Assembly: GCA_033558025.1 (NCBI GenBank) | Contig: JAUCEF010000005.1 | Location: 1,178,001-1,242,000, forward strand | Origin: Phytophthora sp. 'mugwort' | Taxonomy: Eukaryota; Oomycota; Peronosporomycetes; Peronosporales; Peronosporaceae | Length of the DNA stretch: 64,000 nucleotides | Reading direction: 5' to 3' | In this document: positions 25,475 through 61,353 of the stretch, in pieces | Numbering within the stretch: position 1 is the first letter of the stretch | How the letters are laid out: every line of letters starts with the position of its first letter | Notes under the pieces: generated by a model | Seen by the model: only the letters and a program-made list of their open reading frames with translations | Database searches by the model: none | Told to the model about the DNA's origin: nothing | Made by a program: the position numbers and the translations under genes

Positions 25475-25700
25475 AGTAGTATTAAAACACTACGTATACG
25501 TTTTTTTTATTTCCCGAAGATTCTTACCATAATTCTTTACCGAGAGTAGGTATAAACGTTTCTAACCGTTTCTAAACATTTTTTTAGTATCCAGCTGTTG
25601 TTTTCGACGCCACCGCGATTCCATAGGGTTAGAGTAAAAGGGGAGACTTAAAACCCTAAATCCTACGTCACACGTTGTCGCATAAGCTATAGATCATCTA
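25475..25700 (+). repeat. Left terminal inverted repeat of the giant element
   Basis: Matches the minus strand of 61353-61177 and then, across a later insertion, of 59605-59540. Shared blocks include AACGTTTCTAACCGT, GTATCCAGCTGTTGTTTTCG, GGTTAGAGTAAAAGGG and CACGTTGTCGCATAAGCTAT. Similarity fades near 25700. This copy is uninterrupted. Confidence 0.85.
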
Positions 25701-26133
25701 GATTACTTAACTTTTGACTTGAAGTTAAGTACTAAAACGGACCCCTCACTCGAAGATATATGTAGGTACAGTACCTTTTCCAGTCCAACTTCACTAGGAG
25801 CAAATCCAACTTCACCAAGTGCAAGTTCAGATTTACATGGCCCAATTCAAATGAACAAAGTCCAAGCTCAAATGCATAAAACCTAATAAACGTAATATTC
25901 CGAAAACATTTTTTATAGTAGGTTGTTCATTCGCGAGGATTCCCGCGCACACAACACTGCTTCGCGCCTCCGTAACTGCGATGAGATCGCTGGGCTTCTT
26001 CAATTCCACCAATGTCATTTGCAAAGAATCCGCCAATAGCAGGCCCTCACACTTTCCCCTTTGTGCTCGCCAGCGACGAGCTGCTAACGCGCGCTCGAGT
26101 AGCGCTCACTCTGCAACATTCAACTTGGCAAGC
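25701..26133. other. Non-coding stretch inside the left end of the giant element
   Basis: AT-rich with no gene. It contains short similar phrases (TCCAACTTCAC and CCAAGTGCAAGTTC, 25780-25870) that look like degenerate subterminal repeats. Confidence 0.4.
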
Positions 26134-26571
26134 ATGCCGTCGCACTACAACCGCTACACCCTGGCACTCAAGCTCCGTATTCTGGAAGCTGCACGATCCG
26201 GTGGGGACTGGGAAACCGTCGCGGGCGTAAACAACGTCAACATCAACACAGCTCGATCATGGCTGCGGCGCTATCTTACCTGCGCAGACGCTATGCAAAT
26301 CGCGCCACGTGGTGGAAAACGGGCGCAGAAGATGACAGCAGAAGGTGTGGCTGTCCTTGTGTCGCAGATGTCTATCGATCTCGATCTCACGTTCCGACAG
26401 CTTGCCGACCAGCTTGAGCAAGCGTGCTCCATCTCCGTATGCCCACAGACCATCAAGAATCACCTGGACGCTAACTTGATAATCATGAAGCAGTTCCACA
26501 AAGAGCCGCAGTACATGAACACGGAGCTGAACAAGCTCAAGCGCAGGAAGTTTTTTATCCGTTTGCCATAG
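26134..26571 (+). pseudogene. Truncated Tc1/IS630-type transposase, N-terminal part
   Basis: ATG at 26134 (MPSHYNRYTLALKLRIL). Residues 8-60 form a helix-turn-helix (WETVAGVNNVNINTARSWLR) and residues 80-125 a second DNA-binding helical region (DLTFRQLADQLEQ, VCPQTIKNHL), as in the paired-type N-terminus of Tc1/mariner/IS630 transposases. The frame stops at 26571 before any DDE residue, directly where LINE sequence begins, so the gene was probably cut by the LINE insertion. Its C-terminal half was not found beyond the LINE. Confidence 0.65.
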
Positions 26572-26905
26572 CTACAGCCAGTTTGCAATTTACCGGCTAC
26601 CCCACAAGTGACATACATAGACAGTCCCATACCTGCTACTGCGCTTTCAAACTTCGGTCCCTCCAGTCCCGTGTTGTCGTTTCTCCACCTCAGCCTAACT
26701 GTCGTGCTGTCACCTGACTACCGGACCTCAAGACCCCGCACCGCACCGCGACACCACCACCTCGCTAAGCCGTCGTGCTGCCGCCGCCGAAGAACTAAGT
26801 TGTCGCGACTCCCAATCGAGCCGCTCCTTTGAAGCTGTTGCCGAGTTTGCGCCTGGCCCTAGGAGGTCAGAGGAGTGCGGCCTAGCCCTACCTTAAAGGG
26901 GGAAC

Positions 26906-28518
26906 GTGACAGCTACGAGAGAGCAGCTGGAAGAAGAAACGCCCGAACTGGTCCGCCAGCCTTCGCAGCCCATCATCATGGCGGCTCCTCGTCGTGACCA
27001 GACTTGGCATGCTGAGTGGCGAAACAAGGCCCCACAGGTCGAGTTCTCGTTGCCCACCGATGACGCGCTCGCGTCAGCAGAAAAGGCCATGTTGGATCCC
27101 GAGCGCAACGCTGATGACAAGAAAGCAGCTGCTCTACGTGGAGTTCCCCAGATCGTCTCGAGTGAGTTGACCTACTCCATGTGGATTCCTGCGCGAGACC
27201 TGACCGTTACGTTCTCTAATACGGAGATCATGACCTCGCTCGGATCGGATACGCAACCGGCCATCTGTCGGCCAACGCCAGCCATCTGCGCGATTTCAAG
27301 ACCATCCGGAACGTTGGCATCAGCTTTGTATGCACTGATCAAGCTGTCGTATCCAAGTTGGGTGGCTAGACGCTGTCGATCTGCGACCGAAACTATCGGG
27401 TTCAACCGTACTCCAAGTACTCCAGCTGGTACTATGTCGACTTGCAGCGCCTGCCTGACGAGTTCGATGACAGCGAGATCTACGACTGGTTCGCCGCACA
27501 TGGGACACCACCGGTGTTCATCTGCTCTAGTCGTACGGTTCGCGGTCTGAAGTCATGCAGCCGCCGAATGTACTTCAACCACAAGTCCCCGCCCGAGTCG
27601 CTGATGCTTACGCCAACGACGCCGTTGCGAGAAATCAAGTTCGGTGACCAAGGATACGCGGTGGTCAATCACCGCATCCATGAGTTCAACCACGGCATGC
27701 CGCCCTTCCTGAAGGCGATGCACGAGAAACGCAAGGCTCACCCATCATCATCTAAGTCGGTTGACCATGCGGCACATCAGGCTTCTTCGAAGCCAGCTGT
27801 TGCCACGAGCGTCGAAGCCAATGGCACGCCTATGGAAACGTCGGACGCCGAGTACGAGCCATCCGAGCCTAATGGCTCAGAAGTGAGTGACTCGGAAGTC
27901 AGTTCAGGCAGCGCTATGGAAGGTGTTGAAGGAGAAGCTGTCGAAGACGGGATCACAGTCCAGCCCAATTCTATCTGGCCGTCGGACGAAGAACCTCCAA
28001 ATTTTCCCACTGGTTCGATCAAGCGAACGGACCGGGAGCCGGCGCGTATCTTGCGCGCCAAGCAACTTGTCTTTGGCAAAATGTCCACTCCCACAGCGAA
28101 GACAAGGGAACTACCCCCGTCCCAGACTGGCTATCCAGTACTGGCATCCACCAACCAGTATGAGTGGCTGAGTGAGGGAGATGGTGGCAATGTCCCACCT
28201 GATCAGGATATGACTCTATGGCACAGTTCTCAGATCCCGCCCTCCCCGGTTGCCTCGTTTGTCAAGCTGTCCAAGCCTGCCGAAAAAATACTCAACAGCG
28301 CTGCGATCAAGTACCCTGCAGAGACGATCACCCTCAATGACCTCTGCGACGTCATCGAATCGTATCTGACGGAGTTCTCGAACACCTCAGATGCCGATAA
28401 CAGCTTGTACGGGATCCAAGCCCAACTAGCGTCCATCGCTTTTTATTGGACACCTCGGCTCCCGTTAGCTATCAGCATCTTCGCAGCAAGACGTTTGGCC
28501 ACGGAGTACTCCGAATGA
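26906..28518 (+). pseudogene. ORF1 protein of the LINE
   Basis: Starts with TREQLEEETPELVRQPSQP, changes frame near 27240 and then runs open from 27442 to 28518. The second part has a conserved-looking core (FDDSEIYDWFAAHGTPPVFI, GDQGYAVVNHRIHEFN) and a long acidic Ser/Glu-rich linker. No RNA-binding motif could be named. Position directly before the endonuclease-RT ORF makes it the LINE nucleic-acid chaperone ORF1. At least one stop (27368) lies between the two parts. Confidence 0.65.
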
Positions 28519-28969
28519 TCTCCACGAAGCTAGACTCTCGGCGAAGGACTACTCGCTCAAGAACAAGTTGGCCGAGCTCTTCCCGGACGCCGACGACCTA
28601 AGCCCAGAAGTCGTGCTGCAGAGCCTTTGCTCTACCCCAAACGAGTTCTGGCTCCAAACGCGACTGGCCGAGTTTGATCTTGCGTTGCAAGTGATTGCTC
28701 CAAGCATCTATACGGATCCGGTCAACGTCTGCGCTCTAATCCAACAAGAAGCTACTACGCAGCCCCATCCGATGTGGCACCTCTGGGACGATCGCATCCT
28801 AGGGGTACTGGTAACCTCGCCGTTGGCAACTCGACTCCTTGATGATGGCCCGTTGCCGGACGAATTACGCCAATGCATTGCTGATCTCCAGCAAGCGGCT
28901 TCGGCAGTAGCCAACTCGGGTAGCCCTTCTCTCTAATGGGAATTGGGCCCTGAGAGGGTTCTCGCTGAA

Positions 28970-30437
28970 CGCTAACGGCATGAACCGGACCTCAAGGAGC
29001 TCGCTGCAGTATTCTCTAAGACCTTTCACATGATCGGTCTTCAGGAGACGTGCTTCACCGGGCCCTTCAGCTACCAGCGCTTGGAAACAGATCTGGAGGC
29101 AAACCTCGCGGTTTAATTCCAGCTTTTGGTCGCAAGAACATATGACTACATACACAGGGCACGCTGGTGTGGGCTTATTACTCACGCCGACATGCTCTGT
29201 TCAAGATATCCAAGACGTTACCCTCGGTCATGTTAGCTCGGCTGATATGATGGATCGGTACTTACTACTACGCGGCACTCTGGACTTGAAAGAGACGTAC
29301 ATTCATGTGTTGTATGCCCCCGTTAAAGGCCAGAAGCGGCCAACTTTCTTTAAAAACCTTCCAAGAGACTTCGACGATGATGTGCTGCACATTGTCATGG
29401 GCGACTTCAACACGGTGATGTCAAGCCAACTGGACCAAGCCAACCACACCGACCGAAATCGATCGCGGGGACGAACCGAGCTGCTGGACTGGATGCAAGC
29501 TATCAACGATGTGGATGCATGGCGCCTGGAACATCCGACGCTCGTCGAGTTCACCAGCCCCAACTCCAGCTCAAGGTTAGACTACGTGATGCTAAGCTCC
29601 CAGCTCTTCCACTCGGCCATGCAGGGCATTCTGCACGACTTTCGCAATCGCTCCAATATGGGTGACCACTGCGGCATCGACTTTCGACTCGGATCTGCTG
29701 TCTTTCGGCCGGCTAAGAGACCCCCCTGGCGCTGCCCAGAATGGATCATCCAGCTTCCTGAAGCGCAGCAGTATCTCCAAGAATCGCTGATCAAGTTGGC
29801 AGACATGCTCCATGCACCAACGGACTCCCACTACAACCCGGGCTGCCTACTCGACGAGCACAAGCGTCGCGACAACATCTTCCTGCACGAGTTATTTGAA
29901 TCCCGGGAGAATGCTCGCCAGCGCGAACTTGAGGAACTGCACCTGGAAATCAATGATCTGCAGCACCGCCAATCGACGGAGCCTACCGATGATCAACGCC
30001 GGCGGCTGACTGAAAAGAGGGCACTACTGGAGGTCAAGATGAAGGTGAAAAAGTTCTACGCATCGAAGAAGAAGTTTGCCTCCGACCTCCATGATTCTGA
30101 GCGAGGTATCAAGTACTTCTTCCGACCGCCTCAGATCCTGCACAACACTCCGATTCCTGTCAATTCGCCGGAGGAGTTGGAAGTCATGTGCCAGGAGTTC
30201 AACCAGTTTTGGTCCGGGATCTATCGTTCACTTTCAAGGGAGTTCCATCATGACAAGCCGAAATGGGATCGCATCAAGCTGGCCCAGATCCTTAAACACA
30301 CGACCAAGCATCTGACGCCGAAGCAAGCTGCCTATCTTGCAGTCCACTCACAGCAAATGACTTCTACTGGGCTATCAAGCATACGTCGTAGGGGAAGGCA
30401 CCAGGACCCGATGGGTTACCCCTGGCCTACTACCTAA
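28970..30437 (+). pseudogene. LINE endonuclease and following linker
   Basis: The endonuclease/exonuclease/phosphatase fold is visible as MIGLQETCFTGPFS (catalytic Glu block), then IVMGDFNTVMSSQLDQ (GDFN block), DVDAWRLEHPTLVEFTSPNS, SRLDYVMLS and, last, NMGDHCGIDFRL (catalytic Asp-His). It nicks target DNA to prime reverse transcription. Stops at 29114 and a frameshift near 29130 separate the first block from the open stretch 29142-30437, which continues into a charged helical linker before the RT. Confidence 0.8.
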
Positions 30438-30439
30438 CT

Positions 30440-32376
30440 GATGTGCCGATTTGGAGCCGTATCCTGGAGATTGTCTACGCGGCTCAACTGGAGAGAGGCA
30501 GGATGTCCAAGTTCCAGCGTCGCGACCAAGTCTGCTTGCTATACAAGAAGGGAGACCGTAAAGAGCCTTGGAACTACAGACCCATTACCCTCCTCAACGT
30601 CGATGCCTAGCTGGGCCCCAAGATACTGGCATACCGTCTGGGAACTGTCTTAGATAGTATCCTATTCTCTGAACAGTATGGCTTCGTGCCTGGGCGCGAT
30701 ATTCGTCATGCTCACCTGCGGCTTCAAGCACTCATGAAAGTGTATGAAGACGATGACGCGGTGGCTGGTGCTATCTTGCTTGACTTTGCCAAGGCCTTCG
30801 ACAGCGTGGTGTGGGATGCCCTTAACATGATCCTCGAGCACTTCCGCTTCGGCGAAGTATTTCGTCGCTAGGTACGCGTGATGTTCCTGGGACTTTGGTG
30901 GCGCTACTATTCAACGGTAGCCCACTTTCGCCCTTTGAATTAGTGAGAGGCGTGCGGCAAGGGGACCCTCTCTCCCCGGGTCTGTTCGTGCTTTACGCGG
31001 AACCTTTGCTGAAATTGATTCGCGCCAAGATGAATGATGCTGGACTTCGGTGTGGAGACTCTTCGGTGGTCCATACAGTTGTCAGCTTTGTTGATGACTG
31101 CACTGGACTATTGAGGGACCTGCGGGATACTCAGCAGCTACAGGACTTGATGGATCTCTCTGTGAGGCATCGGGCATGGAGCTGAACAAGAACAAGACCG
31201 TGGTGCTGCCGTTCCACCCCTGGAACAGTGAAACTGACAGCATCCGTGAGGCACTACAGCAATTGGGACTAAGGTTGTTGGGAACAACGACTCGGCCAAA
31301 CTGCTTAGTATATACTACGGTCCCAAGCTCACAGACGCGGCACGGCTACAGCACATATTGGCGGACATGCAGACAAGATGTTCACTGTGGAGTACCGGGC
31401 ACGCATTCTGCGAGGATAAGTGGTCATCCTACAACAGATTATCTTGCCTATTCTCTAGTACACGGCCAGTGTCTGCTACATACCTGAAACTGGTTTTCCA
31501 AGACCAAGTCCAGGACATGATAGTACGGTTCATGACCCAGTCTTCTACGTCGAACATCATGCCCCGAGCTTGGTGGACGGTGCCCATGCACATGAGAGGC
31601 CTCGGCTTAACGCCTATGAAAACGATGATCGAGGGACTCCAACTACACATGCTCTGCAAGCTGCTCATGGCCGTACGCCAGTCACCGGATGATGTACCCT
31701 CATGGGCCGCCCCAGTCATTGCGCTGTTTGACTCCGTGATGAAACCTTGGGGACGCGACTTTGGCATCCTGTACGCGCCGGTCTGGAACAGCCCTCATCA
31801 TGTGGTGTCTCGACGGCTAAGACGATGGAGACCGCTTGGTTTGTATTGGCACCATGTTCTCTTCCTTTGGAACACCAAACTGCGCCCCAAGATCACTCGC
31901 AACATGACCAAGTTTGACAAGTTGACAATGCCGCTGCTGGACAATGTGGATATCACGACTGCAACCAAGACGCCCAAGACCCTGCGAGCCGCAAACCTGG
32001 GAATTGTCCAAGACCTTATTCGCTTAAAGGTTTATCGGATATCTACTTGTTTGAGCTTAGTGGATACCCGCCTCAAGCCGCCAAGCTATCCCAAGTCATC
32101 CGTGAGCATGGCCAGCCTAGGCGTGCTAACAGCGTGAGCTTCTGCGGATCTTTCTTAACTAAGATTGACTCGCAGTTACGACCGTTGGCCAACATGCCCA
32201 CTGGACCCCGCCCCAAGCCACACTACGGCTGCGCACTCCATACTTGGAGCTTCAGTGGCTATGAAGTCGCTGATCTCACGGTGTCGTTAATACGCAAGCT
32301 CCTGGTTCAGTACAAGGTACCCGGCCTGCCAACGACTGCACTTGGCCTTGAACGGGCGCCTCCCGCAGAGGTATGA
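30440..32376 (+). pseudogene. LINE reverse transcriptase and C-terminal region
   Basis: RT blocks in order: PWNYRPITLLNVDA, EQYGFVPGRDIRHAHL, ILLDFAKAFDSVVWDAL, VRGVRQGDPLSPGLFVLYAE and VSFVDDCTGLL. The FVDD box is the catalytic [YF]xDD motif and is intact. Stops at 30608 and 30868 and frameshifts near 30890 and 31170 break the frame. The region after 31358 is helical (MTKFDKLTMPLLDNVD) and typical of LINE C-terminal domains without a named fold. Confidence 0.85.
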
Positions 32377-33300
32377 GGCAGGGACCTAAAGATGAACAAG
32401 CACGTACTACCAGTGAACGCGGACTTGCTGTACAGACTTCAGCACAACGCACTTTGGTGGGCTTTAGGTTGCAGCACGTGCAAGGCGCTATGACTTTGCT
32501 GCCGTCATGGGTGTGGAGTCATTGAAACCGTCTCCCACCTCTTTTAGTATTGTGACTTTGCGGCAGCCGTATGGCGGAATGGCTTGAGGTGTTCCAGCAG
32601 TGGTTTGAGTCTCCCATTGAGTGGGCGACTGTGGTCTACTACGCGGACATCATGCCTACGCCCCAAGCCAAAAAGGACTTCGGTTACAGCCTCTTTGGGT
32701 CTTCCACATAGTGAGAGCTGTGGTACTTCGCTGCCTATGGACGGACCGCAATGACATCCGCTTCCACGATGTATGAACCAAGTCTCATCGGCGTCAGGCT
32801 CGGGTGCACGCCCTGATTGACCTTCATGTTGCTGCCTTATGGCAGGCAACCCAGGCGCAAGCAATAAGACAGTCCTCGCAGGTGAGTAGGCAACTACACA
32901 CCTTATTGCGAGGACTGTCTGTGTCGGCACCCTTCGACGACAATGGCCCAAGCGACCACGAGGCGGAAGCCCGTAAGTGGGACTCCTTACTCGCGGACAT
33001 ATTGAACCACGACAGGGAAGAAACGTCCAGAGCGTTAGCGCCCTTCACGACTGCAGATCCAAGCAATCGCGAGGTGGAAACCCGTCGGCGGGACTCCTTT
33101 CCCGCGGCCATGTTGAACCGCAGCCGGGAAGAAACGCCTGTGGCCTGAAGGTAAGGCCACAAGCTCAAGGCTTCATCCTGATGTCTTACAATCCGCCGCC
33201 GACGTGCTCGGCCATTACTGACTTCAGTATCCACCACTTTCACGCCCATACGCCAAGTTCCCGGCTCCATTTGCCGATCTCTTAGCGGGCGTTACCTAAT

Positions 33301-34174
33301 GTCTGCTGTACCCCAAGGCGGTACGGATTTTTGAACCCAGGCGGGGCCCCACGTTGGCGGACACGCGGGTGAAGAATGCGACTCGCTACAGACGCTTACG
33401 CGTGTTATGGCATGGACGAGATCACTGGAAATACTCTTTGGATCGAGATTTAGAGCGGCGCCACACTCCGAGCCGCGCGTACTACAAGGCCTACAAGCCC
33501 ATGAGACGACGGCTAGGAGGCTTTGCCCCTCTAAACCACGAACCGCATCTCTCCTACTGAAGTTCCCGGTCAAGCAGTCTCAAGAACTACCGGGTCTAAC
33601 CGTGCCTCCAGGCCTACAGCCCATGAGACGGCGCCCAGTAGCCCCCAAGACCACCAGTCCAGTCACAAGACCAGATATCCCAACCTTCGCGGCCAAACCC
33701 CAACCATCGTCCGAACGGTCTGGTCTGCCCGGGGATTGAACCCTGGCCGCTTCCGTCCGACACTGGATGCTTAACCAGCTGATCTATCTGAGCTCACTAG
33801 AAGTAGGTGGCTCACCACCACCTGGTTCATCGGATTATACTTGGGTTTTTTATAGACCCCATCGGAAAGGTCCTGCAAATGTCCAACTCGGCCCAGAGAG
33901 GTCTCGGGACGTCCACCAGTTTCCTCCTGGACACTAAAATGGGTCTTTCAGGTACCCACTTTCGAGAAAATGGACCTTTATCAAGACGATAAATTCTAAC
34001 GCAACGAATCTGCGAGGATATGGGGGGGGCGGAAGTGAGAGCGGAATCTGTATAACCATTTAGACGTTTCTAATCGTACCGCCATTACCAGCACTTTGTA
34101 TCACTATGTTATAGATACCTCCTCATACTGCAGCTACGTTCCTTCGTCGCCCGCGACGGCCTTCGCTGCGATAG
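33301..34174. other. LINE tail and spacer
   Basis: No gene. It contains a short duplicated phrase (GGCCTAC..GCCCATGAGACG at about 33490 and 33610), the tRNA-like stretch annotated separately, and a G-rich run at 34021. Confidence 0.4.
33721..33797 (-). repeat. tRNA-derived (SINE-head-like) sequence
   Basis: The minus strand reads like a degenerate tRNA: a D-arm/A-box region (TAGATCAGCTGGTTAAGCAT), then a T-arm/B-box (AGGGTTCAATCCCCGGGCAG) running into an acceptor end GACCA. The 5' acceptor half does not pair with the 3' half, so it is not a working tRNA gene. Such sequences head tRNA-derived SINEs. The SINE body was not delimited. Confidence 0.5.
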
Positions 34175-34710
34175 GTGCCGTTGCGCGTTCTCGGCGTTTC
34201 TGCTTGGTCAGACGCCGCTGATGCAAGAGCCAAAGACTACGATGATCTTCCTGCTGGCACCGAGGGGGCTAGCGACGGTCTTGATAAAAGCATTGTCGAG
34301 GCCCGTGCCACTGAAGCAACCAGCAGTCGCAGCGTAGGTGATCCTGGTACCGTTCGCCGCGGTTGCCCAAAGTGACAAGTTGATGACGAGCGGGATGCGA
34401 ACACGAAATCTATCAGGGGGCAAACACGCAGGGCCACCGTGATCCCGAAGCACCCCGCCGACGAGTCGACGCGGCGACAGCCATTGAGCCCAAGGGCCGC
34501 AACGGGATGGACAGTATCGGAGCAGACACGCGCGGAGGTAGATTTTTTTGCGGCTCGTATGCAGATCGGGTCCACCTCAGGTCTTTCGACCTGTTGGCGA
34601 CCCTTCATGGCGATTTTGTTGTTGGTCAGACTTTAGGTCGAGCTGCTAGATCTAATGCAGATCTAAGGAAAAGGTTATCTGGGCGCCCATTCTCATATTT
34701 TGCGAATTAA
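34175..34710 (+). repeat. Degenerate coding repeat, copy 1 (plus)
   Basis: One frame reads GADTRGGRFFCGSYADRVHL. The minus strand of 37937-37714 reads GEANRADKFFCGSYMGRVYF. So the two stretches are inverted relatives on either side of the hAT-like remnant. No family recognised; stops interrupt both. Confidence 0.45.
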
Positions 34711-35345
34711 CTTGGCTCGGCAACTTTATGGCAATGGTAAACGTAAATGTTCCCAAATGCTCTGTCGCCTAGTGTGCGTGGCGGTTGTTGCACCACAGCA
34801 CAATGCAACCAATTCCGCTCCCACCAGCTATACGCAGTTGTTGCACCGTATACGTCTTTATTAGGGAATTTTGCTCTATTTACAGTTGTGAGTAGAAGTC
34901 GTCACCACGTTGCTCAGCCATCTTAGCAATGGCGTCCTATCGTACGGTTAATCAGAGGAAACTTGGCTAATAAGTTGGTTGGCGGGGCGTAACCCTCCGG
35001 ATGACCGATCTTCCCGCAACGCTGGATCCGTACACGACTGAGGCGGCAACTCCGTCTCCGACGACGTCATGCCCTCCACAACGAAACCCGCAACACCTTG
35101 CCCGACAACCACATGCCCAATACGAGATCTGCCCCCAACGCTTTGATGAGCTGTACCCTTAGCAAACAAGCCCGCGCTGCGCAGGATCACCTTCTCAATG
35201 CAGGTCGCCATCGTCAATCTTCGCGCCTTGCCGAGTGAAGGCAAACGATTAAATGAGCTTGCCGCAAAGGGTGCTATCCAAACGACGGTTTAATCCAGAC
35301 CGTGCCAAGTGCCGGGTTGTGTCCTAGTAGCTTTAATCCTGCGCT

Positions 35346-37937: not shown

Positions 37938-38114
37938 CCCAGATAGCCCGACCAGCGGTACCGCGTCTGTCGGTCCGGGCGATACGGCTGAGCCACGTGC
38001 GATCGATCGTGATTTAGCTAGTTTCGCCTCTATTACGTCGACAATATCAACCTTTTGGAACCAAGGTTACAGGACTGTCGTCGAGATGTTGAGCGTTGAA
38101 GAGGTTGATATTGT

Positions 38115-49660: not shown

Positions 49661-50230
49661 AACCTGTCATCCCCGCACCATTCGGAGGCTGGAACTTGTT
49701 TCATGGACGCTCTCTGGTCGGCGCTGTATTACCTTGGTCAGCCGAGACTAGTCACGATGGACATGTGGGACGCATTCGAAGACACGCGACCTGAGATTCA
49801 GTACGGCGTGACGCGCGACGATGCTACGGAGTTCTTCGAGTTGTTGCAACGTCAAAGCGTGCCTTTGAACTACAACCGCTTGATGGTTAATCTTCTCTCG
49901 AGTTCCGCTATCAAGATCGATACTCTCCATGATTTCTGGAAGACGCTTGAAGCTGGTGCCTACATCGTGAGAGCTGGCGAAGATGGACTTGGGCACTGTT
50001 TCGTCGTGGTCTCGCATGGTCGTGACAAGCGACTCATCTCGCTCGATGACTACGACACCAAGAACGATCCGCCGATTGTTGTCACGCCTCTCCGTTATCA
50101 GGCATGGATCAATCACGTGGAGTGGATCTGCCGCGTCGAGCTGCAGTCGGGGTACCAGTGTCGCCACGGGAAGCGCAAGTCGAAGATTCAGAGCAAGCGG
50201 GAGAAGCGTTTGAAGAAGCAGCAACAATAG
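49661..50230 (+). CDS. Peptidase-like ORF with Cys-His-Asp arrangement, N-terminus missing
   Basis: The frame is open before the first ATG (49703), and the likely nucleophile lies just upstream of it: EAGTCFMDALWSALYYLG, Cys at 49697. The continuation has GEDGLGHCFVVVSHGRD (candidate His) and RLISLDDYDTKNDPP (candidate Asp), and a Lys/Arg-rich tail (KREKRLKKQQQ) before the stop at 50230. A Cys at the start of a helix followed by GHCFVVV and an Asp is the order of papain-like/OTU cysteine peptidases. Family not named. It abuts the dead gypsy element on its left and lies next to the gypsy element on its right (opposite strand), so it may be a mobile-element ORF. The core is uninterrupted. Confidence 0.5.
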   Translation, partial: NLSSPHHSEAGTCFMDALWSALYYLGQPRLVTMDMWDAFEDTRPEIQYGVTRDDATEFFELLQRQSVPLNYNRLMVNLLSSSAIKIDTLHDFWKTLEAGAYIVRAGEDGLGHCFVVVSHGRDKRLISLDDYDTKNDPPIVVTPLRYQAWINHVEWICRVELQSGYQCRHGKRKSKIQSKREKRLKKQQQ

Positions 50231-50405
50231 TAGGGGTTGTACATATGGAATACATTTGGCTTTTGTGCCCCCCTCAGAACTGTTTATCTTCTCGTCGCTT
50301 CGTTCTCCGGGTTGCCTCAAAGTCCGCAATGAGGTCTGGAATTTGCGTGAGATTCTCCACTGGTTCCCAAGTTGGCTTCTCCTCTCCAACCCACTCCACA
50401 TGGAA

Positions 50406-51613
50406 TTACGTACGTCGTTTGTGACGACGCCTTCCCAAAAGACGCTTGACAATCTGATCGACACTGCCGTCTGCCAGAATCACGTCACCTGGTCGAGATA
50501 ATCGAGTTGACTCCTTGTACGGCTTCAACGATCCGGTGTTGAAGACTGGATGGAGCTTGTTTCCGGCCTGGATGTTGAGCTCGTAGGCATGGTTGTGCAC
50601 CTTCCACGCGACCGTGTACGATCCAATCCACTTTGGTCCAAACTTCGTGGAATTTGGTAGGCCAGAGTGCTTTGGGTTGAAGTGCCTCGTGCTTAAGTAC
50701 ACTTGGTCCCCAACTTAGAAGACTTGCTCCTCACGGTTCCGGTCATAAGTATCGCGCAGTCGCTATTGGGCTTCAGCTAGCGCTTCGCGGCAGCGCAGCA
50801 GGATTGCCGCTTGACTCTCGTGGAACTCGGCGCCGTGCCGACTCGTGGAATCCGTACCAGTTGCTCTGCCATGAGTTGAAGTGGGTTCAACGGAATGTAA
50901 CCCAGATCCTCTTCGAACGGCGCAAGTTGTATGCTGGAGTTAACCGTCGAGACAATGGCAAACTCAGCGTTGGCCAAGTGAACGTCCCAGTCATCCTGCA
51001 GCGGACCAACGAAGCAGCGGATATACTCTTCCAGCGTATGGTTCATTCGCTCAGTTTGTCCATCGCCTTGCGCTCGGTGCGCTACGGTCATGCTCAGCTT
51101 CGTTCCAAAAGACTTGAAGATATGCTGCCAGAAGTTGGACACAAACTTCCTATCGGGACCAGATACGATGTTGGATGGCATGCCGTGCAGCTTCTAGATG
51201 TTGCCGATGAAGAGTCGAGCAACACCTTCAGCTGTCACCGTGTTGGACGTAGGTACGAAGTGGCAACGCTTGGTCAACCGATCACCGACGACCCAGATGG
51301 AATTAACGTCTCTTTTCTTTCGGGGTAGATCCGTGATGAAGTCCATGGAGATGGATCGCCATCGCTCATCCGGAATGCTCAGTGGTTCGAGCAGTCCTGG
51401 GGGTTCGTCAACCGTGGCTTTGTTCCTTCGACAAGGCTCACAGTCGGCAATGAATCTCTGGATGGACTTGAGCATCTTAGACCAGTACCAACGACGTGCA
51501 AGTGTCAAGTACGTCCGTTCAGCACCGGGGTGACCGCCGTAGTTAGTGTCGTGGCACCCGCTGATGATCGTCTGTCGTAACTTCAGGTCGTTGGGCACGA
51601 CAATGCGAGGCAC
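50406..51613 (-). pseudogene. Integrase region of gypsy element 2
   Basis: The zinc-binding domain is complete (HDTNYGGHPGAERTYLTLAR, then CEPCRRNK). The DDE core follows with MDFITDLPRKKRDVNSIWVV (first Asp), then SGPDRKFVSNFWQHIFKSFG (second Asp) and QGDGQTERMNHTLEEYIRCF (Glu), so all three catalytic residues are readable across one frameshift near 51190. The tail (FGPKWIGSYTVAWKVHNHAY, LHPVFNTGSLKPYKES) is typical of gypsy integrase C-termini. Confidence 0.88.
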
Positions 51614-52065
51614 GTTATCGACCGGTGTTTGCTACCACAGTAATCCCACCGCTTCAGAATAACGGCGATACTTATTGTGGTGTTGCTGTACGCGCTTCGG
51701 TTTTGAGCCAGCTGTACGTCGCTTGATCGCTGAGAAGATTGTTTGGATCTCACGGTCCTTCTTGTACGCTTTCTTGATGCTGGAGATCAATTCGGAGTTG
51801 GTAGTCACTTCGCTGATCGCCAAGCTGAAAGAGGTATCGTCGAAACTTGTTACGCTCAAGTCATGGGAAAACTTCATCTCCGGTTGCCGGTTCGGACCTT
51901 CGGCTCAGTGCAACCGCGATGCCGTTCTTGGCTCCGGACAGATAAGAAACAGTTGGCTGGTACTCCGCGAGGATGTCGTACCAGCGCACTAGTCGTCGAT
52001 TGGCCATCTTCTGCGTGAACAGGCTTTCAAGACTCTTGTGATCTGTCTCGCAATTGGAGGTTTGT

Positions 52066-53244
52066 CTAAGCAGTAGATCCTGAACGCAGCCAGAGCGTGA
52101 ACGATCGCTTGTGTTGCTGCTGCTGGGTTGGGTAGTTGAGCACCGCTGACTTCATCTTCCTACTGGTGTACGCAATAGGACACTCAACACCATCAACAAC
52201 CTGGAAGAGTACTCCCACAGCGAACTTGCTCGCATCGGTCCGGAGATGCATAGGCTGGTTGAATTCTGGAAGGTACAGTACCGGTGGGTTGCACAACCGC
52301 CGCTTCAACTCTTTGAGTTCTTCAACAGCTCATCGTTTTTTTTTTTTGAAGTGGATCTGCGCGTTGCGCTTGTTCTGCTTCTTCAGGAGAGCGAACATGG
52401 TCGCAGTTAGTGAAGCGTACTCCGGGCAGAAACGCTGAACGTATCCAGTCAAGCCAAGGAAGCTGTGAAGCTCTTCTTGCATTCGAGGTATGGGCCAGTC
52501 CTTGATTGTCTGGACCTTATCGGGATCCATCCGTACTCCATCTCGCCCAACGAAGTCACTTTTTAAGCACGGGATCTCGTCACCGCAGAAGACACACTTG
52601 GCAAGCTTCACGTAAAGCTTGTTGTCGCGCAAGATGTCCAATGTCTTCCGCAAAGCTTCGAGGTGTTCGTCAATGCCATGGGAATATGTAGATGTCGTCA
52701 TAGAAAGATTTCGTGTTTTCCAAACCACGAAACAGCTTCGATGTCAACCATGCATCTTCGCAGGTGCATTACAGACTCCCATGGGTAGCACCAGGTACTC
52801 CCAGAGCCCATTGGGTGCCTTGAACGCCGTGAACTTGATGTCTTCTTCGCGCATGCGAACTTGGTAGTACGCGGATATCAGATCCATTGTCGAAAACCAA
52901 TGTGCACCCGACTTGGCGTCCAAGATGTCTTCTTTCCTTGTCATTGGAATACTCTGGCGCACAGTGTTCGAATTCAAGTATCGGTAATCGCGAACAATTC
53001 TCCATCCCACTGGCTCGCGGACGCAGAACGCTGTTGCAGCATGTGGGCTGATGCTTGGACGGATGGGCTTTTTCTTCACCATGTCTTCAACCCAGCGTAC
53101 GATTTCGCGCTGCTGTTCCGGTGATTGTCTCCACTGCTGCCGATACATCGCAAAGTGCGAATTTCTCAGTCGATCCGATGCTCGATATCGCGTTTCTCGT
53201 GTAAGCCTTCTGGAAGTTCCGGACAAAACGCACTGTCTTTGCAC
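52066..53244 (-). pseudogene. Reverse transcriptase and RNase H region of gypsy element 2
   Basis: RT blocks: WRIVRDYRYLNSNTVRQSIP, GAHWFSTMDLISAYYQVRMR (first catalytic Asp), FTAFKAPNGLWEYLVLPMGV with CNAPAKM, then in the next frame the YDDIYIF box, HLEALRKTLDILRDNKLYVK, GLTGYVQRFCPEYASLTATM, and RNase H start LRTDASKFAVGVLFQV. A frameshift lies just before the YDD box, and an A/T homopolymer at 52337 breaks the frame again. Confidence 0.85.
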
Positions 53245-53707
53245 TCCACGAGTAGCTGGAAAGCTGGATTGTCTTGGAAGCTATCCCAGTCCGTCTCCAG
53301 ATAGCGTTGTGCCTTCGCACTTCCGACGTTGTCGGGTTGATCTTGCCGATGCAGTGATCGAGCAACTTGCTTGATTGTCTCGTTCGACAGGACCACCATG
53401 AAATCCGGTTCATTTATCGACTCGGTCTTGATTCTCAGGAACTTTCGCAATCTCTTTCGCGCGATGTACTTGGTCTCCACACCAGTCTCATCTACCACGC
53501 CAATTGTGAGCATCTTCTCCACGAAGGTGTCTTTCCCCTTGGCACCGCTGCTCCCAAGAGTCTCCCCTGCAGTACCCTCGCGTTCTGTCAACTCCAAGTC
53601 GCGCTCTTCTACCGAACCCTTGCCGGTTGACGCGTCTTATTGCTGTCCGCGGACAACACTCGGGGTTTCTTTCTGCACTGTGTCGCGATCCGGGCCATCT
53701 ACAGACT

Positions 53708-55157
53708 TCACTTCCGTTTCCAGCATGGCGCCTCGACAGGAATCGGGTCTTTCGCCGATAGGCCTTTCACCTCGACAGATCTCCGAATCCCGGAGGCAAT
53801 CACCGGTCCGCCTTCCTCGATCGGTCCGCAGGTGATACCTGACCGCTCCCAGTACAGAGTTTTCACTCCTGCTCCTTGAATACGTCGACTTCTCCAGCCG
53901 ATTTGGGGCTGCACATCCTCGAAGAATGGAATTCCAAGGATGCAGTCAAATTCGTCGGGGATCGCGTAGACTACTGCAACACACTTGTATGCCTCGCTAG
54001 TCCCAACACTTAGATCTCGAGAGGCAGAACTTCCAGTTCCGCTTCCACGATTTGGTGTCTTCGAGCTTGACGCGGGTGTTTTATCGCTGAACTTTGTTGT
54101 CCGAAGCTGATGCTCCGATACCCAGTGGTTTAACACATAAATCGTGGTCGCCCCGCAGTCCAGTAACGTATTTCGCGTCAATATGGCCTTATCAGCCGCG
54201 TGTATCTCACCAGAAACGGAGAACAGCGGCCGAGACTTGTATACTAGAGGGTTTTCATTCAGAACGTTGAGGCCGATAGCCTCAACGTTCTGAATGAAAA
54301 CCCTCTGGTCGTTCTGGTTACACTGTCGGCCACGTCAAGACCCTCATTCACTGACGTGGTTGCTCATTTCCCTGCTTGTCTTGTTCCTTCTTCCACGCAA
54401 AGCAGTTAGCCCTGATGTGGCCTGGCTTCTTGGAAAAGCAACAAGTACGATCTTCGGCGCACTTGGTGTCCGACTTCGACTTGAAGCGACCCTTCCCGCG
54501 AAACGATTCCCCCTTAGGTTTGCCATTGTCTTGGGATCGGCCAGCCGACGACGATCTCTTGTCTCTGTCCGAACGACGCTCTCTCTCACTTCTTCGGCGA
54601 AGTGAGTCACTTCGTACTTGACGGCTAAATCCATAGCTTCACTCACGCCTCGGGGTTCTCGATCTTGGCATAGCTGCGCGTGCGAGGCTTGAGACCGTTC
54701 GCATAGCACAACACCTGGTCGAGTATGCTCATGCCTTCCACGCGGAAGATGAGAGCTGAGTACTCGTCGTTGTATGGCTCGATCTCCGCTGTCTGCTTGA
54801 GTCGCTGGAACTTCTCGCGCAGGACGGCCTGGCAGTTCGATGCTTCGAAGTCTTGGAGCACATGCTAACGGAAAATCCCCCACGTGTGCTCCTCGCTTCT
54901 CGTCGTCGAAGACCAATGCAGGAACCACCCCGAGGCCGGCTTATTGCCGACCCGGCGATCCCCGGCAGTCGTGTGCTCATGTCTTCGATCAGAATACCGT
55001 TGATGCGACACGCGTTCTCGATCTGGAACAGCCATTCGCGGACGCCCTTCACGTGCTTGCCAGTGAACTTTGGCAGATTGGTGGGCACTCGCGAGCGCTT
55101 AACCGTCGCTTGATTGAGCTGGTCAATCTCGGCTTGTAGCTGGGCGATGGTCGGCAT
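53708..55157 (-). pseudogene. Gag and protease region of gypsy element 2
   Basis: Gag: PTNLPKFTGKHVKGVREWLF with IENACRINGI, then, after a frameshift, LREKFQRLKQTAEIEPYNDE and MSILDQVLCYANGLKPRTRS, the usual gypsy Gag capsid series. The protease piece at 54181-53708 has TLLDCGATTIYV, where retropepsins have D-[ST]-G; a Cys follows the catalytic Asp here. CIPFFEDVQP-type flap sequence follows (GIPFFEDVQPQIGW). The zinc-knuckle region between them (about 54400-54600) is present only as broken sequence. Confidence 0.75.
54246..54306. repeat. Perfect 28-bp inverted repeat with 5-base loop
   Basis: Arm AGAGGGTTTTCATTCAGAAC plus GTTGAGGC at 54246-54273; its exact inverted copy at 54279-54306; loop CGATA. 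It lies inside gypsy element 2 between gag and protease. A true hairpin or a fold-back assembly artefact are both possible. Confidence 0.9.
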
Positions 55158-57283
55158 GGGCTATTTCGGTCAGGTTGCTGGGACCAACAAGTGCTACCAG
55201 TATTTCTGAAAGCGTGAGAGTTGGGGGGGGGGCGGCTAGAATCAGAGTGAGCCGTCCCCCGCAGTTCGGGCGGATGGAGGCCACGTGGACCCCTCAACCG
55301 CCGTACGTCTGCTTATATTATTTAACTTTACTAATTCTATATTCCTCTAGATCCGCATCCTAGTGGCTACTTTTATAGCCAATTCGCATGCATCTATACT
55401 CAGTGGATGGTTAGTTCGTTCTGGAGATGGCAGATTTACCATTCTCCTGGAGGTTACACCACTACAAACAATCCATATGAAGTATCTAATGCTAGCATTA
55501 AAAAATAAGCGTTATACTCAACGGAAAGCAACGGATACGAGGCGACTGATACAGAAGCTGATCGCTATCACAGAAGACTATTTCATTTGTGCACCCCGTC
55601 CTGCATCCAGTGCTCGAACTTCTCCAGGTCAACCTTTTATCTGTCGGCTGTGAAATGGTGCGTGAGGAGAGCGCATCATGTCGGAATGCCGCCAAATGGC
55701 TGGATGGTGCGTACCAATGCATTTAGGTGTGCTTGCTCGTACTACATGAAGTTTTTATCGTGTGCACATCATCTGTGGGCTTGCGGCGTATAGTATAAGC
55801 ATTCCCGGGTAAATGGGGCTCATTAAAGTTTAGGGATCGTCGTGTTCGCCAATGGTTCACATACTCCAAATCCACTGGATGGATTTCCAAGTATGAGGAT
55901 GGCGCAGATGGCGTTGGTTGGAGACCTGGCTCAATTAGCACTATCCGTAGTATCTCGCACCGGAAACAAATGGCGACGGTGACATGTTGCTGGAAGAAGT
56001 ATGCAACACTTTTCCACTGAATTATGCTGAAGTACGCAGCGATTCCTGGGGCTATCACTTGGTACCAGTTTATCGTTTCCCCCAGCGGAGCTAGAACCGC
56101 TGTGAAATTCGACCGTCGCCCCAACACCTTCCAGTTTTGATATCGCATCATTACTGTCACCAGCGCCGGACGTGGATGAAGTATTACAATGGTCGCTAGA
56201 AATGGTATTTGATCCATATGAGCAGCAGAATGTAAATGCCTTATTGGGAGAGGGCTCACCGCCACCGGTCCAACGCATACGTTTAGAAGCCAGCGTGGAC
56301 GCCCCCCCCCCTCGCGTTAGATATTCAGTATTTGCTGCAATAGTGCTTTCGGGGTATGTAACTGGTCTAAGACTATGTGTGTTTGTTACTAAATGGACCA
56401 TGATTAATTTCAAACTGCTAGAAATTTTGCTGAGTTTTGTTTTTGAAGTGGTCCAGCTCACAAAATACACACCGATATCTGCGTAACACTGGCTCTCACA
56501 ACTCGTGCTTGTGATACTTTGCATTGTAGTTTCGTCTCCTAACACAAGATACATGAATCCTTCTCACTGTCAAGTTTCATTATAGAAATAACATATAAAC
56601 GGCCTGTTACGGCTGCGCTAATGGTTTCAAGTTCCACCCCAAGTTCCATAAGAACCACGCCCCCCAGTACCCCTTAAAGACACACTCAACTAACACCAGT
56701 AGCTGCTGCTACAAATGTTCGTGACTCATGTCCTCGGTAGACTATCGTGCCATCAGGACAAACGAATACTTGGGTAGTATCAATACAGCCACGTTACTGC
56801 TTGCGTCCTCTTCAACCCGACCAACCTCAGGCAATTACCGCCCATCACAGGATATCCGCTGACACCAGCACTGGCTCACAATAACCCGACCTTTCGCAAT
56901 TACCTGACACCTGCTCATAATAATATGACACGTGCTCACAATAATCTGACACCTGCTCACAATAATCTGACATCGGTTAAAAAATAATCTTACGCACCAG
57001 GGCCAGTTCACATTAAACTGAAATGTACGGTTCACTTCTAACCGATCGAGCGTACGGTTCCGGATGGCGCAGTTCATTCCGAATACGATGGTGGTCATAA
57101 GACACCGATAAAGGAACAATAGGCAAAAAAAATACAATGCTGGAAGCAACATCCGGAATGGAAGACGCAGGACGCCGTCCTGTGTATGTAATGAGACCAA
57201 CTCTTCTAAGCTGGAAGAATATATACTGGGATATAAATGCGCCGCCGAAGGGGGCTGGGGATCGCTTTCGTAGCCGGGGGGGG
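55158..57283. other. Mostly non-coding; possible short ORF
   Basis: An open plus-strand stretch at 56163-56486 (VDEVLQWSLEMVFDPYEQQN) may belong to the same lost gene as the peptidase downstream, but has no named domain. Minus-strand open stretches over the same bases look like shadows. It includes a 21-bp tandem repeat. Confidence 0.35.
56862..56975. repeat. 21-bp tandem repeat
   Basis: About five imperfect copies of TGACACCTGCTCACAATAATC; the last three are closest to the consensus. Confidence 0.8.
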
Positions 57284-58790
57284 GGGGGGTCCATACGTAC
57301 TGGCCGAGTACAAAGAAGCCGTACTTGAGTTCTTTGATACTTGTTTGCGTGAGGATGGACAAGTGTCGTATGCAGATGTGATGTCTATACAGTGGGGATA
57401 CGGCACTGGTTTCGAAAGACCCAGTGACGGATGGTGTTGGATTGGGTATGGTGGAGGCAATGTCGGAGAACACGTCCGTGCCGGAAAGAGAGGCTACGGT
57501 GGAAATCGTTGAGGCGTGTCTGGCGCACACCACAAAGGAGGCACACGCGCCAGAACCGAGGACAACATGGTTGAGGAAATGGCGGATGACGCGGCTGAAT
57601 CGGTGGAGGATACTACGACGTAGAACGTCGACGGCGAATGTGCCCAGCAGAGCATAGTAATTGAAAGGCCGGCGAAGCGTGCAAAGCTAATCCTAAACCC
57701 TTTGGATTTTATGCTGCGAAAAAGCCCACGGACTGTGCAGCGAGTTTGTTCGAGGGCTTTCGGGAGTATACGTTTTTACAGAAGTTTTGAGATAGTAGCT
57801 TACCCGCTGAAGCGGTTGACACCAAGCGCGATAACACCGTCCGACGGAGTGAGCCGTTTTCTTCCAAAGCCGGTAATTGCACGCTGCGATGCAAAAGTGA
57901 CTGGAGTGCAAGATAAGACGGCAGGTCTAGCTGAAAAGGATGTCGCGGTAAAGATTAGCGACGTGCGGATCATCACAATGCGATCGATTGCTACAATGAA
58001 GAGCTGGTACAGGGGGATAAAGGCTTTTGAAGTCTTGGACCAGGCCTTGGAATTCATTGCAAGGGTCGACTTTGATATTGCCATCAATCAAGCAATTCGT
58101 GTGTTGAGAGACAACCGGTTCGAGGAGCGTTTGAAGGCTTTACCGATATTCGCGGATCAGGTACTGTACCGTGCTGAATTGCTGCGTTATGTCCGTGGTG
58201 CTTACATCGTGAATTTGTTTGATTTTGCAAGATGAAGAATCTTGATCTCGTATGAAGAAGCACTCTCGCTGATATCACGCTAAACTACCTGCTCAAGCAT
58301 TTATTTGGGGGTCGATCGGACGTTGTATTGATTGATACAACGACTTTCTCCATCGTGGTCGATGGAAACATCGCTATCGCCGAGGGGATTCTCGAGGGCT
58401 TGTTTTTTGCTTTGTCGGCGGAAACGGTGCTCGTGCCGATTAACTATGACAGCATACACTGGTGCGGCATGATGATAAACTTATCTGAGGTGAAGGTGCA
58501 TATTTACGACCAAATGTGCTCTAGTCTTGCCAAGAGTGTCAAGAAGGTTGCTCAGAATTTCTGCCACTGCTTCCGCCACCGTCAAAGGATAAGAAGCGCT
58601 ACCACATTATGCCGTATGAGTGTGGCTTTGGCGTGCAAGTAGACCCTACAACTATGGATATTCGTGCTGGTAGCGTTCGAGATGGTGTGCGACTCCTGCA
58701 CACCTGGCAAGCTGAGTCGAAGGCTTCTAAGGTACCTGCGTTACAAATATCTACCAATGTGCTTCTATACGCACTTCGCACCTCTTGAAA
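57284..58790 (+). pseudogene. ULP1-type cysteine peptidase, inactivated
   Basis: An N-terminal part (LAEYKEAVLEFFDTCLREDG, VSYADVMSIQWGYGTGFE) is followed after frame changes by an open stretch 57702-58235 (FDIAINQAIRVLRDNRFEER) and then the peptidase domain: LVPINYDSIHWCGMMINLSE with the catalytic His at 58457, VHIYDQMCSS with Asp at 58508, and GFGVQVD with the oxyanion Gln near 58636. The nucleophile block should read SYNCG; here it is PYNYG (TAT at 58653), so Cys is replaced by Tyr. The remaining helix (IFVLVAFEMVCDSCTPGKLS) lies in another frame. ULP1-type peptidases occur in MULEs and in Polintons as well as in hosts, so position near the right end of the giant element is suggestive, not decisive. 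Confidence 0.7.
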
Positions 58791-58800
58791 TACACGAATG

Positions 58801-59204
58801 CTAGTCTTGCGATCGAAGCTGCGCACATAACTCCAGAGCCAGTTCCGATTCACGTAGCAGAGATGCCGCAAATTCGTCGATCCCGGTAGGGGATGTACGG
58901 CATTCGATAGAGCGTGGATAAGTTAGGCAATATGCGCCGCTTATCAGTAAAACCGAGTGTAGATTCATATCCGTGAAGCTTTGCTTTGATCCCAACCGCC
59001 CAAATCCGATCCACCTTACAGATACTGCCGCAAGCTTGTCAACTGCGATCTGTCCGCCCGTGAGTGAGGTACTATATCGCCTTGTCTGCGCATCATAGTG
59101 CAATGTCTTTGTAAGAAAAAGTCTTTGCTGTCGGCTGGTTGCAAGTGTTTGCTGGAGCCGAATTGATGTCTACTGGCGGCTTTTACGCACCGAGATATTG
59201 GCAT
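58801..59204 (-). pseudogene. Unrecognised minus-strand coding remnant
   Basis: Two open stretches (59204-59016 and 59103-58801) join across a frame change near 59090 to give a plausible single reading (KLAAVSVRWIGFGRLGSKQS). No family recognised. The region from 59205 to 59540 has nothing supported. Confidence 0.35.
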
Positions 59205-59539
59205 TTGAAAAAAAAGTACCCGTTCTTTGAAGTTGCATGGTCAAAATCCAAGCTTTATGCTTTGTGTAAGTAAAATGATGCGCGTAATTCCAACGCTTCA
59301 TAGACTTACACATGGAGACGAAACGTCATGATGGAGTCGAGCCTTGAAAATAATGCCCATCATTTCCTCTGCTTATCAGCATCCGATACTGCTGCAGGAA
59401 ATTTACTTATTGAATGAATTCAGCACCTGTCCTTGAATTTCGAATTTGTACACACCTTACCATTTTTCACTATATAGTTGCACATCGGTAAACATATCGA
59501 AAACTTGTTTATATACTTAGTAGCTTATCCTTCAGGATT

Positions 59540-59605
59540 GACTTAATTTTAACTTTCGTTGTAGATTATCTATAGCTTATGCGACAACGTGCAACGTATT
59601 ATGTA
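59540..59605 (-). repeat. Inner piece of the right terminal inverted repeat
   Basis: The minus strand reads GCACGTTGTCGCATAAGCTA then TAGATAATCTA, matching 25675-25700. It is separated from the outer piece by the pogo-like element at 59606-61176. Confidence 0.8.
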
Positions 59606-61176
59606 CAGCAAAAGCCATCACTTCCGGTATCGTGGTCCGACCACATCATGGGCTTTGCAATTACTTTATAAGCTTAGAGACTCAGCTCTGCAGCACGGAT
59701 GATAATATCTTCTACCTCTAAATCCTGCCCGTAGCTGGATTCCTCCTTGCCCCTCTCATCTGCTCCATTGAAGACAATGCCAGTGTGCCGGAAACAATTT
59801 TCAATTGTAGCCTTAGCGTGCAGCTCCTGCCAGATTTCTTTACTCCAGCTCATTGCCTGGAGCTGGTCGGCCTTGTACACGTCGCCCTTCTTTGATCTCC
59901 TCTGCGCGCTTAATCTTCTCATACACCCATCAAAGCTGCTTCCTACGGTAAGCACGCTTGAAGGCGGCTATTATTCCTGCGTCCATAGGCTGTAGGAAAG
60001 CAGTCATGTTCGGTGGCAGAAACTCTAGGCGAACATTGGTACATACCATCTCACCAATATTTGTGCGAGGAAGCATTGTCGACTAGCAACAAGATGTGCC
60101 GTCTAGACGCCCGCATGCCGCGATCGAGGTTGAGCAGCCATTCGCGGAAAATCATGACACGTCATCCATGCTTTTTGGTTGGCCTTGTAGTCGAAGCCGA
60201 GCTGGACAGCTGTGCGCTTTCTTGAAGCAGTAGGTCTGCTTGGCGCGACCCAAAAATAGCGGAGGCAGCGCGTCGGAGCCGTCGACATTTGCGGTGAGCA
60301 CGATAGTGATTCGTATCTTATTTTTCTTCACTCCGCGGGTGTCTCTCGTGCAGATGGAGCGGGTGGATGCCATAGCGTAGCATAGGCCCGTTTCAAATAT
60401 GCTGTAAACATCTTGAGGAGCGTATTAATCTGTTAGGTCCAGTAGCTGCCCCCTTCCTAGATAAACAGCAGACGTATCGATGGATGCAGCTTCGCCATGA
60501 CGCTGTCGATAGCGTAGAGCGTGGCGGCGCTCGAACCCAGTGAGCCATCCATCAGAGAACTTTAAGTCCCATGCGTCACAGAGCTCCTTCTGCAGGTCCT
60601 GTGCCTTCATCCTGATCAACTCCTTTGAAAGACACACGCTCTGGGCCTCGACGTACTGGTTCCACGCCCAGAGGTTTTGATCTAGCGCCAAAGACGTAAC
60701 TTCCAGCGGCTTGCGGCGCTTGCTGTCGCCGTACGCCTCGCTCAGGATGGCAGGAGCCGCTCGCAGGATGTTGGAGATCGTCGTCTGGGCAAGTGTCTGC
60801 TTGAGCTTGAAGGCAAGCTTTGCCCACGCGGCAAGCTGGTGCTGGGTCTTGTCTGGGCACTCGGCCGCCTTCTGGATGAGGTGCCGCTCCTGGTAGATCC
60901 TCATCCAGGCCCCCATAACGCGTTGCGGGTGCAACACGGCTCCGATTCAGTTGTGGAAGTGGGCCTGACAACGAGTGTGAAGTGGGCGTCGTACGACTGG
61001 CGGGTGGCGTGGGAGCAGTGACTGGCGGGCGGCGTGGGTGCAGTGCTGCTCCTGCGTCGTGCGCTTTTACTGGTGGACGTGAGCTCCCGCCCAAACTCAA
61101 ATCCTTCCTAAAGCGATTATATCATTCGAAGGAGGATATTAGTTGTGACTAGCACCGGAAGTGATAGCTTGTACTG
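59606..61176 (-). mobile_element. Pogo/Tigger-like transposon inserted in the right terminal repeat
   Basis: Ends: left CAGCAAAAGCCATCACTTCC, right (reversed) CAGTACAAGCTATCACTTCC, 20 of 23 positions equal over the repeat, each flanked by TA. Minus-strand transposase: DNA-binding part with QHQLAAWAKLAFKLKQTLAQ and TTISNILRAAP, CENP-B-type KFSDGWLTGFERRHALRYRQ, then KKNKIRITIVLTANVDGSDA with LPPLFLGRAKQ, LLVDNASSHK (second Asp), FLQPMDAGIIAAFKRAYRRK (third Asp) and a C-terminal EDIIIRAAEL. Stops and a frameshift break it. Length 1571 bp. It differs from the pogo-like copies at 23.5 and 41 kb in ends and in sequence. Confidence 0.87.
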
Positions 61177-61353
61177 TACCCTTTTACTCTAACCGTATCG
61201 AATGTCTCGTCGAAAACAACAGCTGGATACGGTATTAGAAATGTTTAGAGACGGTTAGAAACGTTTTTTATATACTCTCAATATATATATTTTTTTAAGG
61301 TAAGAACTAAGGGGAATCAAAAACGTACACCTAATGTTCTAGAAGTTACTTCT
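61177..61353 (-). repeat. Outer piece of the right terminal inverted repeat of the giant element
   Basis: Inverted relative of 25475-25645. It ends TTACTTCT directly before the target duplication GCCGTG. Confidence 0.87.

Follow-up and report, generated by a model that had tools for sequence, protein, structure and literature searches.

Here we show that a stretch of 35,879 bp splitting a tetraspanin gene (T1) of Phytophthora sp. 'mugwort' is a Polinton/Maverick insertion site of which only the ends are recognisable, and that an intact host gene, here called EFh, lies between these ends. The stretch is part of a window of 64,000 bp (C5:1178001-1242000), whose protein matches place it with Phytophthora and related oomycetes; C5 is a contig of 8.27 Mb in a genome of 86 Mb and 154 contigs. 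No longer functional as an element, the stretch today combines the broken T1 gene and a pair of dead Polinton ends with one working host gene, set in a nest of transposons. A rearranged scar, rather than a new giant element, is the best reading of it. In our judgement it is probably an old Polinton insertion that lost its core, received nested transposons and underwent a local rearrangement which left the native EFh gene between its ends.

The left half of T1 stops at position 25474 and the right half resumes at 61354 (window coordinates, here and below), with the same six letters on both sides of the insert:

25370..25474, + strand: N-terminal half of T1, pseudogene (tblastn to P0077, 83% over 35 aa, E 1e-5)
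25469..25474, no strand: left GCCGTG target duplication, 6 bp
61354..61359, no strand: right GCCGTG target duplication, 6 bp
61354..62143, + strand: C-terminal half of T1, pseudogene (tblastn to P0083, 64% over 244 aa, with stops)

By tblastn, the best matches of the two halves fall in one orthologue group. When the flanks were joined, an in-frame stretch over the junction matched the neighbouring tetraspanin with 54.5% identity over 44 codons. Intact T1 orthologues of relatives are uninterrupted at the site, for example P. sojae P0074 ...LYVAVFVRHTGWVEV. The T1 remnant is now a pseudogene with stops and one frameshift. A sequence-only reading of the window had described a tetraspanin gene split by 35.9 kb with GCCGTG on both sides, whose joined reading matches the intact neighbour. 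The junction coordinates, joined flanks and orthologues confirmed the split, and the match over the junction confirmed the joined reading.

The two ends of the insert are inverted copies of each other. Positions 25483-25642 align with 61341-61179 at 75.9% over 170 columns (E 5e-23), and in an alignment of the family the left and right repeats of the insert are 80% alike over 205 compared sites. The ends are made up as follows:

25475..25704, + strand: left Polinton terminal inverted repeat, tip AGTAGT, recognisable for ~230 bp
59495..59604, - strand: inner part of the right Polinton end (86.8% over 114 columns to piece L026; 85% over 94 to piece L006)
59605..61179, - strand: pogo/Tc5-type transposon within the right terminal repeat (HTH_Tnp_Tc5 E 1e-7)
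61180..61353, - strand: outer part of the right terminal inverted repeat, tip AGAAGT

The right repeat is split by the pogo/Tc5-type insertion of ~1.57 kb, beyond which it continues at 59604-59495; the right end of this inserted element recurs on other contigs at 94-96%. The sequence-only reading had seen the first ~225 bp recur inverted at the right end, and this stands in a refined form, with ~230 bp at the left and a right copy interrupted by an insertion. The insert thus has the terminal repeats of the family, the (AGT)2 tip (exact at the left, one mismatch at the right) and a 6-bp duplication. The Kimura two-parameter (K2P) distance between its left and right repeats, the latter taken without its nested insertion, is 0.23. 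Since this value lies inside the range of six other pairs (0.08-0.42), the insert is not an age outlier.

The left terminal repeat has at least 40 matches in the genome. A 30-letter tip pattern, searched with up to 3 mismatches, gave 41 genome matches (20 forward, 21 reverse) and the reversed-pattern control gave 0. Convergent tips on the same contig within 36 kb form ten pairs, the 6-bp flanks of which are identical in five (the T1 insert included), agree in five of six letters in four and show no agreement in one (C7:6200246-6205734). Inverted pairs with 6-bp duplications, which the sequence-only reading proposed to look for in the assembly, are present, five of the ten (the T1 insert among them) being perfect. 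Its proposal of Polinton-type ends with a 6-bp duplication is likewise borne out by the repeats, tips, flanks and family copies. Seven further pairs, 16.4-22.6 kb long, have their interior in common with one another, six of them at about 70-93% in aligned blocks; the seventh is C9:3070081-3086472. Pox_A32 (packaging-ATPase family) was found in one family copy (E 1.1e-6, above cut-off), DNA_pol_B_2 in frames of two (E 0.0043 and 0.0031, below cut-off) and rve_3 in a frame of one (E 2.7e-4, below cut-off). Most other scanned frames of the reference copies gave no Pfam match, and a solved-structure sequence search with one integrase-like and one capsid-like reference open reading frame (ORF) gave no credible match. 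The gene-based evidence for a Polinton identity is modest because the family copies are decayed. We take the family that shares the ends of the insert to be Polinton/Maverick.

Some further observations were made on this family. A Peptidase_S74 (endosialidase chaperone) frame, as in fibre-type proteins, lies in one Polinton copy (L009:6337-7224, + strand, E 3.2e-8, above cut-off); a literature search for Peptidase_S74 and Polinton together gave no paper. The left and right repeats of five of six reference copies are 68-79% alike, often no closer than repeats of different copies, and those of C17:2150213-2169092 are 92% alike. At piece L006 (C11:2276758) there is a Polinton end, but neither the adjoining 1.5 kb nor a further sample of 6 kb (L027) contains Polinton interior, and this is perhaps another gutted copy. 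L006 was rejected as a sister of the T1 insert, with which it has nothing in common beyond the terminal repeat. We also do not claim a target preference for CCGT/ACGG. This motif was present in 6 of 33 events against a background of 1.6% (P 1.3e-5), but it had been picked post hoc from the first eight pairs, and 0 of 20 tips fetched later carry it.

Inside its ends, the insert consists of repeats surrounding a unique island of ~3 kb that contains EFh. From left to right we found:

25855..26571, + strand: transposase-like helix-turn-helix frame, which we take to be Tc1-type (Pfam HTH_32 E 1.5e-6, below cut-off)
26897..33979, + strand, start approximate: long interspersed nuclear element (LINE)-type retrotransposon (RVT_1 E 8e-8, above cut-off; Exo_endo_phos E 4.5e-4, below cut-off)
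34293..37558, no strand: older dispersed repeats, patchy (genome matches)
37660..40884, no strand: old repeat of ~3.1 kb, preceded by a 140 bp repeat (67-76% to copies on other contigs)
40911..44601, - strand: pogo/Tc5-type transposon (HTH_Tnp_Tc5 E 3.6e-11), with another repeat inside at 42563-44372
44754..46374, + strand: EFh, intact host gene with an EF-hand end; main exon and conserved pieces at 46085-46162 and 46318-46374
46375..47603, no strand: unique sequence with no other genome match
47604..49642, - strand: old long terminal repeat (LTR)-retrotransposon fragments (genome comparison)
49682..55392, - strand: Ty3/gypsy-type retrotransposon (RVT_1 E 5.2e-10; about 85-92% to other copies)
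55441..59051, + strand: repeat with a Ulp1-type peptidase fragment at 58256-58639 (Peptidase_C48 E 1.1e-6; 73% to C16:2381091-2382764)
59219..59538, no strand: dispersed repeat, 320 bp (genome matches)

The 3' part of the LINE (32400-33979, 1.6 kb) is 90-95% identical to at least 39 other places in the genome. No remnant of a Polinton core hidden beneath the nested insertions was detected by blastn, tblastx or tblastn against the reference copies. As DNA, the window and six reference copies have in common the end repeats, the inner right end and one 77 bp repeat outside the C3 element. The 27 frames scanned from inside the insert gave no Pfam match to DNA polymerase B (PolB), rve integrase or packaging ATPase. 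When 374 ORFs of the reference copies were compared with the window, 12 rows were obtained at E<=1e-3, and 0 with the reversed-window control. Four of these rows lie left of the insert, one in a terminal repeat and one in the gypsy chromodomain region, while five come from piece L015 and fall on retrotransposon sequence in the insert, and one is a 33-aa match (E 7.5e-4) in the LINE. For PolB, integrase and ATPase, the reference-ORF matches in the insert are thus retrotransposon sequence and the one 33-aa match. The reference-copy ORFs, among them those which we take to be candidates for the major and minor capsid genes (our own reading and no tool result), found no match inside the insert.

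The sequence-only reading was right about the nested insertions (here LINE, Ty3/gypsy, pogo/Tc5 and other repeats) and, as far as these 27 frames and 374 ORFs go, about the lack of recognisable PolB, ATPase and capsid genes. The evidence does not support its suggestion that the 35.9 kb form a single element, whether non-autonomous or of an undescribed class. We rejected a new giant or non-autonomous class because the ends match the Polinton family, with its seven interior-sharing copies, and because what lies between them is other repeats plus a host gene. The stretch is not filed as a Polinton either, because its gene content fails despite the Polinton ends. The Ulp1-type fragment was considered as a Polinton protease and rejected; it sits in a repeat that is matched elsewhere and is unmatched by the reference-copy ORFs. 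Scans of the window with Rfam and for tRNA genes gave nothing.

The frame of EFh (44742-46085) is open and is its own sole match in the genome, as DNA and as protein. Among the candidates scored, those sharing most words, it has 31 homologues across oomycetes; we named it EFh because the source names of two of these read 'EF-hand domain-containing'. Its identity to nine Phytophthora orthologues is 62-71%, and these orthologues share 64-86% with one another; judged from these comparisons, EFh looks like a working gene under ordinary constraint. Two intact tetraspanin genes follow T1 in the window:

62556..63503, + strand: tetraspanin T2 (Pfam Tetraspanin E 2.9e-18)
63909..64000, + strand: start of tetraspanin T3, which runs past the window to about C5:1242850

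Gene order in relatives was taken from locus tags and matching contig sizes. EFh and T3 have consecutive tags in P. capsici (DVH05_016039 and DVH05_016040, on contigs equally long) and in P. ramorum (PRIC1_008786 and PRIC1_008785), and lie on contigs of equal size in P. fragariaefolia. In Nothophytophthora, EFh (5735) and the tetraspanins 5737 (T3) and 5739 (T1) are on contigs equally long, with 5904 and 5905 on another contig. A tree of 23 tetraspanins groups the T3 of the window with 016040, 008785 and 5737, and its T2 with 5905, and places 5739 and 5904 in the T1 group; the T1 halves themselves were placed by tblastn and not by this tree. From this we infer T1-T2-T3-EFh as the likely ancestral order. 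The order in the window is T1N-[end...EFh...end]-T1C-T2-T3, and EFh is absent from the 5 kb to the right of T3, a stretch of repeats.

On the account we favour, a Polinton/Maverick of the family integrated in T1 and duplicated GCCGTG, insertion and duplication both being directly visible. Its core was lost, and the LINE, gypsy, pogo/Tc5 and other elements that now fill the site, one of them within the right terminal repeat, accumulated, as the present state shows, presumably in that order. A local rearrangement after the insertion would have carried EFh, which lay beyond T3, into the space between the Polinton ends. The likeliest routes would be a pair of consecutive inversions, one breakpoint of which fell in the dead Polinton, or a tandem duplication with later deletions. 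We consider a local event likelier because, by our own arithmetic, the odds that an element carrying EFh lands by chance no further than about 12 kb from its donor, in a genome of 86 Mb, are near 1e-4. Several points weigh against this account. A search of the window for remnants of another copy of T1, T2, T3 or EFh found none (best stray matches E 0.019 and 0.05), and the duplication route therefore requires clean losses. The inversion route takes two events and would require a particular orientation of EFh in relatives. The contigs listed for EFh and T3 of P. ramorum are unequal (clusters of several members), so that only the consecutive tags count there. The placement beside tetraspanins comes from 4 relatives among the 31 EFh matches, most of the others being unplaceable relative to a tetraspanin. 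Finally, the ends and the duplication are well preserved, and a single composite transposition explains them with fewer steps.

Such a transposition, in which the integrase of the family used Polinton ends flanking EFh to the right of T3 and the whole stretch moved a few kb into T1, is in our view unlikely, though it would account for the two ends with their tips and for the perfect 6-bp duplication that bound the EFh-containing stretch, and also for the fact that EFh no longer adjoins T3. However, searches for good matches list no Polinton end near the right of T3. The seven interior-sharing pairs, scanned only by similarity among themselves, show no host cargo. Polintons are held to replicate via an extrachromosomal copy, and a local move that empties the donor is unexpected on that basis. 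We think it quite improbable that EFh is cargo which a nested transposon captured and brought in, with the original copy disappearing. A pogo/Tc5-type element does lie 150 bp upstream of EFh and LTR-retrotransposon fragments lie downstream, but EFh is still followed by its later coding pieces, spaced as by introns, and by 1.2 kb of unique sequence, the island is not bounded by transposon ends, and a landing within 20 kb of the old neighbours would be a coincidence.

An assembly error that joined EFh between the Polinton ends through young repeats (LINE, gypsy) is about as improbable as captured cargo. Repeats with many close copies do lie on both sides of EFh; yet the contigs are large, C5 among them, both T1 junctions fit one insertion, and EFh is found only here, among its expected neighbours. 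Mavericks of nematodes can carry host cargo. That a replicating Polinton took up EFh and integrated here, with the native copy lost later, is very improbable, as EFh has no Polinton gene accompanying it and a landing beside the donor would again have a chance near 1e-4, even if Polintons are reviewed as giant elements with 5-10 ORFs (PMC6431247).

The T1 insert can be set beside known systems. In composite transposons, two ends mobilise the DNA lying between them. The T1 insert is similar in that inverted ends and a target duplication enclose a host gene, but it has no second copy in the genome and shows no sign of having moved as one unit; no empty donor is readable among the repeats right of T3. 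Vertebrate Mavericks have a 5'-(AGT)2//(ACT)2-3' end motif, inverted repeats of 46-1,447 bp and 6-bp target duplications, and intact ones measure 12.7-24.6 kb (PMC8097293). The T1 insert resembles them in its end motif (left exact, right AGAAGT), its repeats of ~230 bp and its 6-bp duplication, and differs in its length of 35.9 kb, its unrecognisable conserved genes and an interior of other transposons and a host gene. One contig of P. parasitica has annotated Polinton fragments, in surroundings rich in transposons and poor in genes (PMC8204020). The host group and such a setting are the same here, in contrast to which the present case is a bounded insertion in a named gene, with both ends and a target duplication. 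Further literature cited is PMC4028283 and PMC2836005. A Polinton end pair around a native gene in an oomycete was not found in the literature searched, which does not prove its absence.

As the T1 insert shows, DNA between two inverted ends and a target duplication need never have been an element; here it includes a native gene, and EFh was recognised as native only by checking its neighbours in relatives. The locus also adds a well-bounded oomycete Polinton family that has 6-bp duplications, and it suggests that local changes of gene order can involve dead Polintons. If the composite transposition were true, Polintons could transport entire host genes inside a genome, and dead or non-autonomous Polinton ends would have moved a complete working eukaryotic gene locally into a neighbouring tetraspanin.

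Tips in other arrangements occur elsewhere. At C11:3165199 and C11:3183225 (pieces L033, L034 and L048-L050), two Polinton tips point in the same direction, each with a 6-bp flank that is the reverse complement of the other (CACAGG, CCTGTG). On their outer sides the flanking DNA belongs to a retrotransposon, with a gag-protease part at one tip and a reverse-transcriptase part at the other, and the two parts run in one direction once one of them is turned round. This hints that one end was inverted after insertion into a gypsy-type element, a possible parallel to the T1 locus; it is a hint and no proof because a control join likewise gave a spanning frame. The tips at C10:2300130, C10:2383153, C13:3842156 and C13:3871352, a same-direction pair on each contig, are flanked by GACATA or its reverse complement; their 50-bp flanks are otherwise unlike, and inversions or exchange between the contigs could explain them. 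To the left of T1, at 12515-25056 of the window, lie host genes for an NIF-type phosphatase, a TPR protein, UTP15 and a further tetraspanin (21506-22453, - strand), and a DDE_1 transposase frame at 24334-25056 stands directly before T1.

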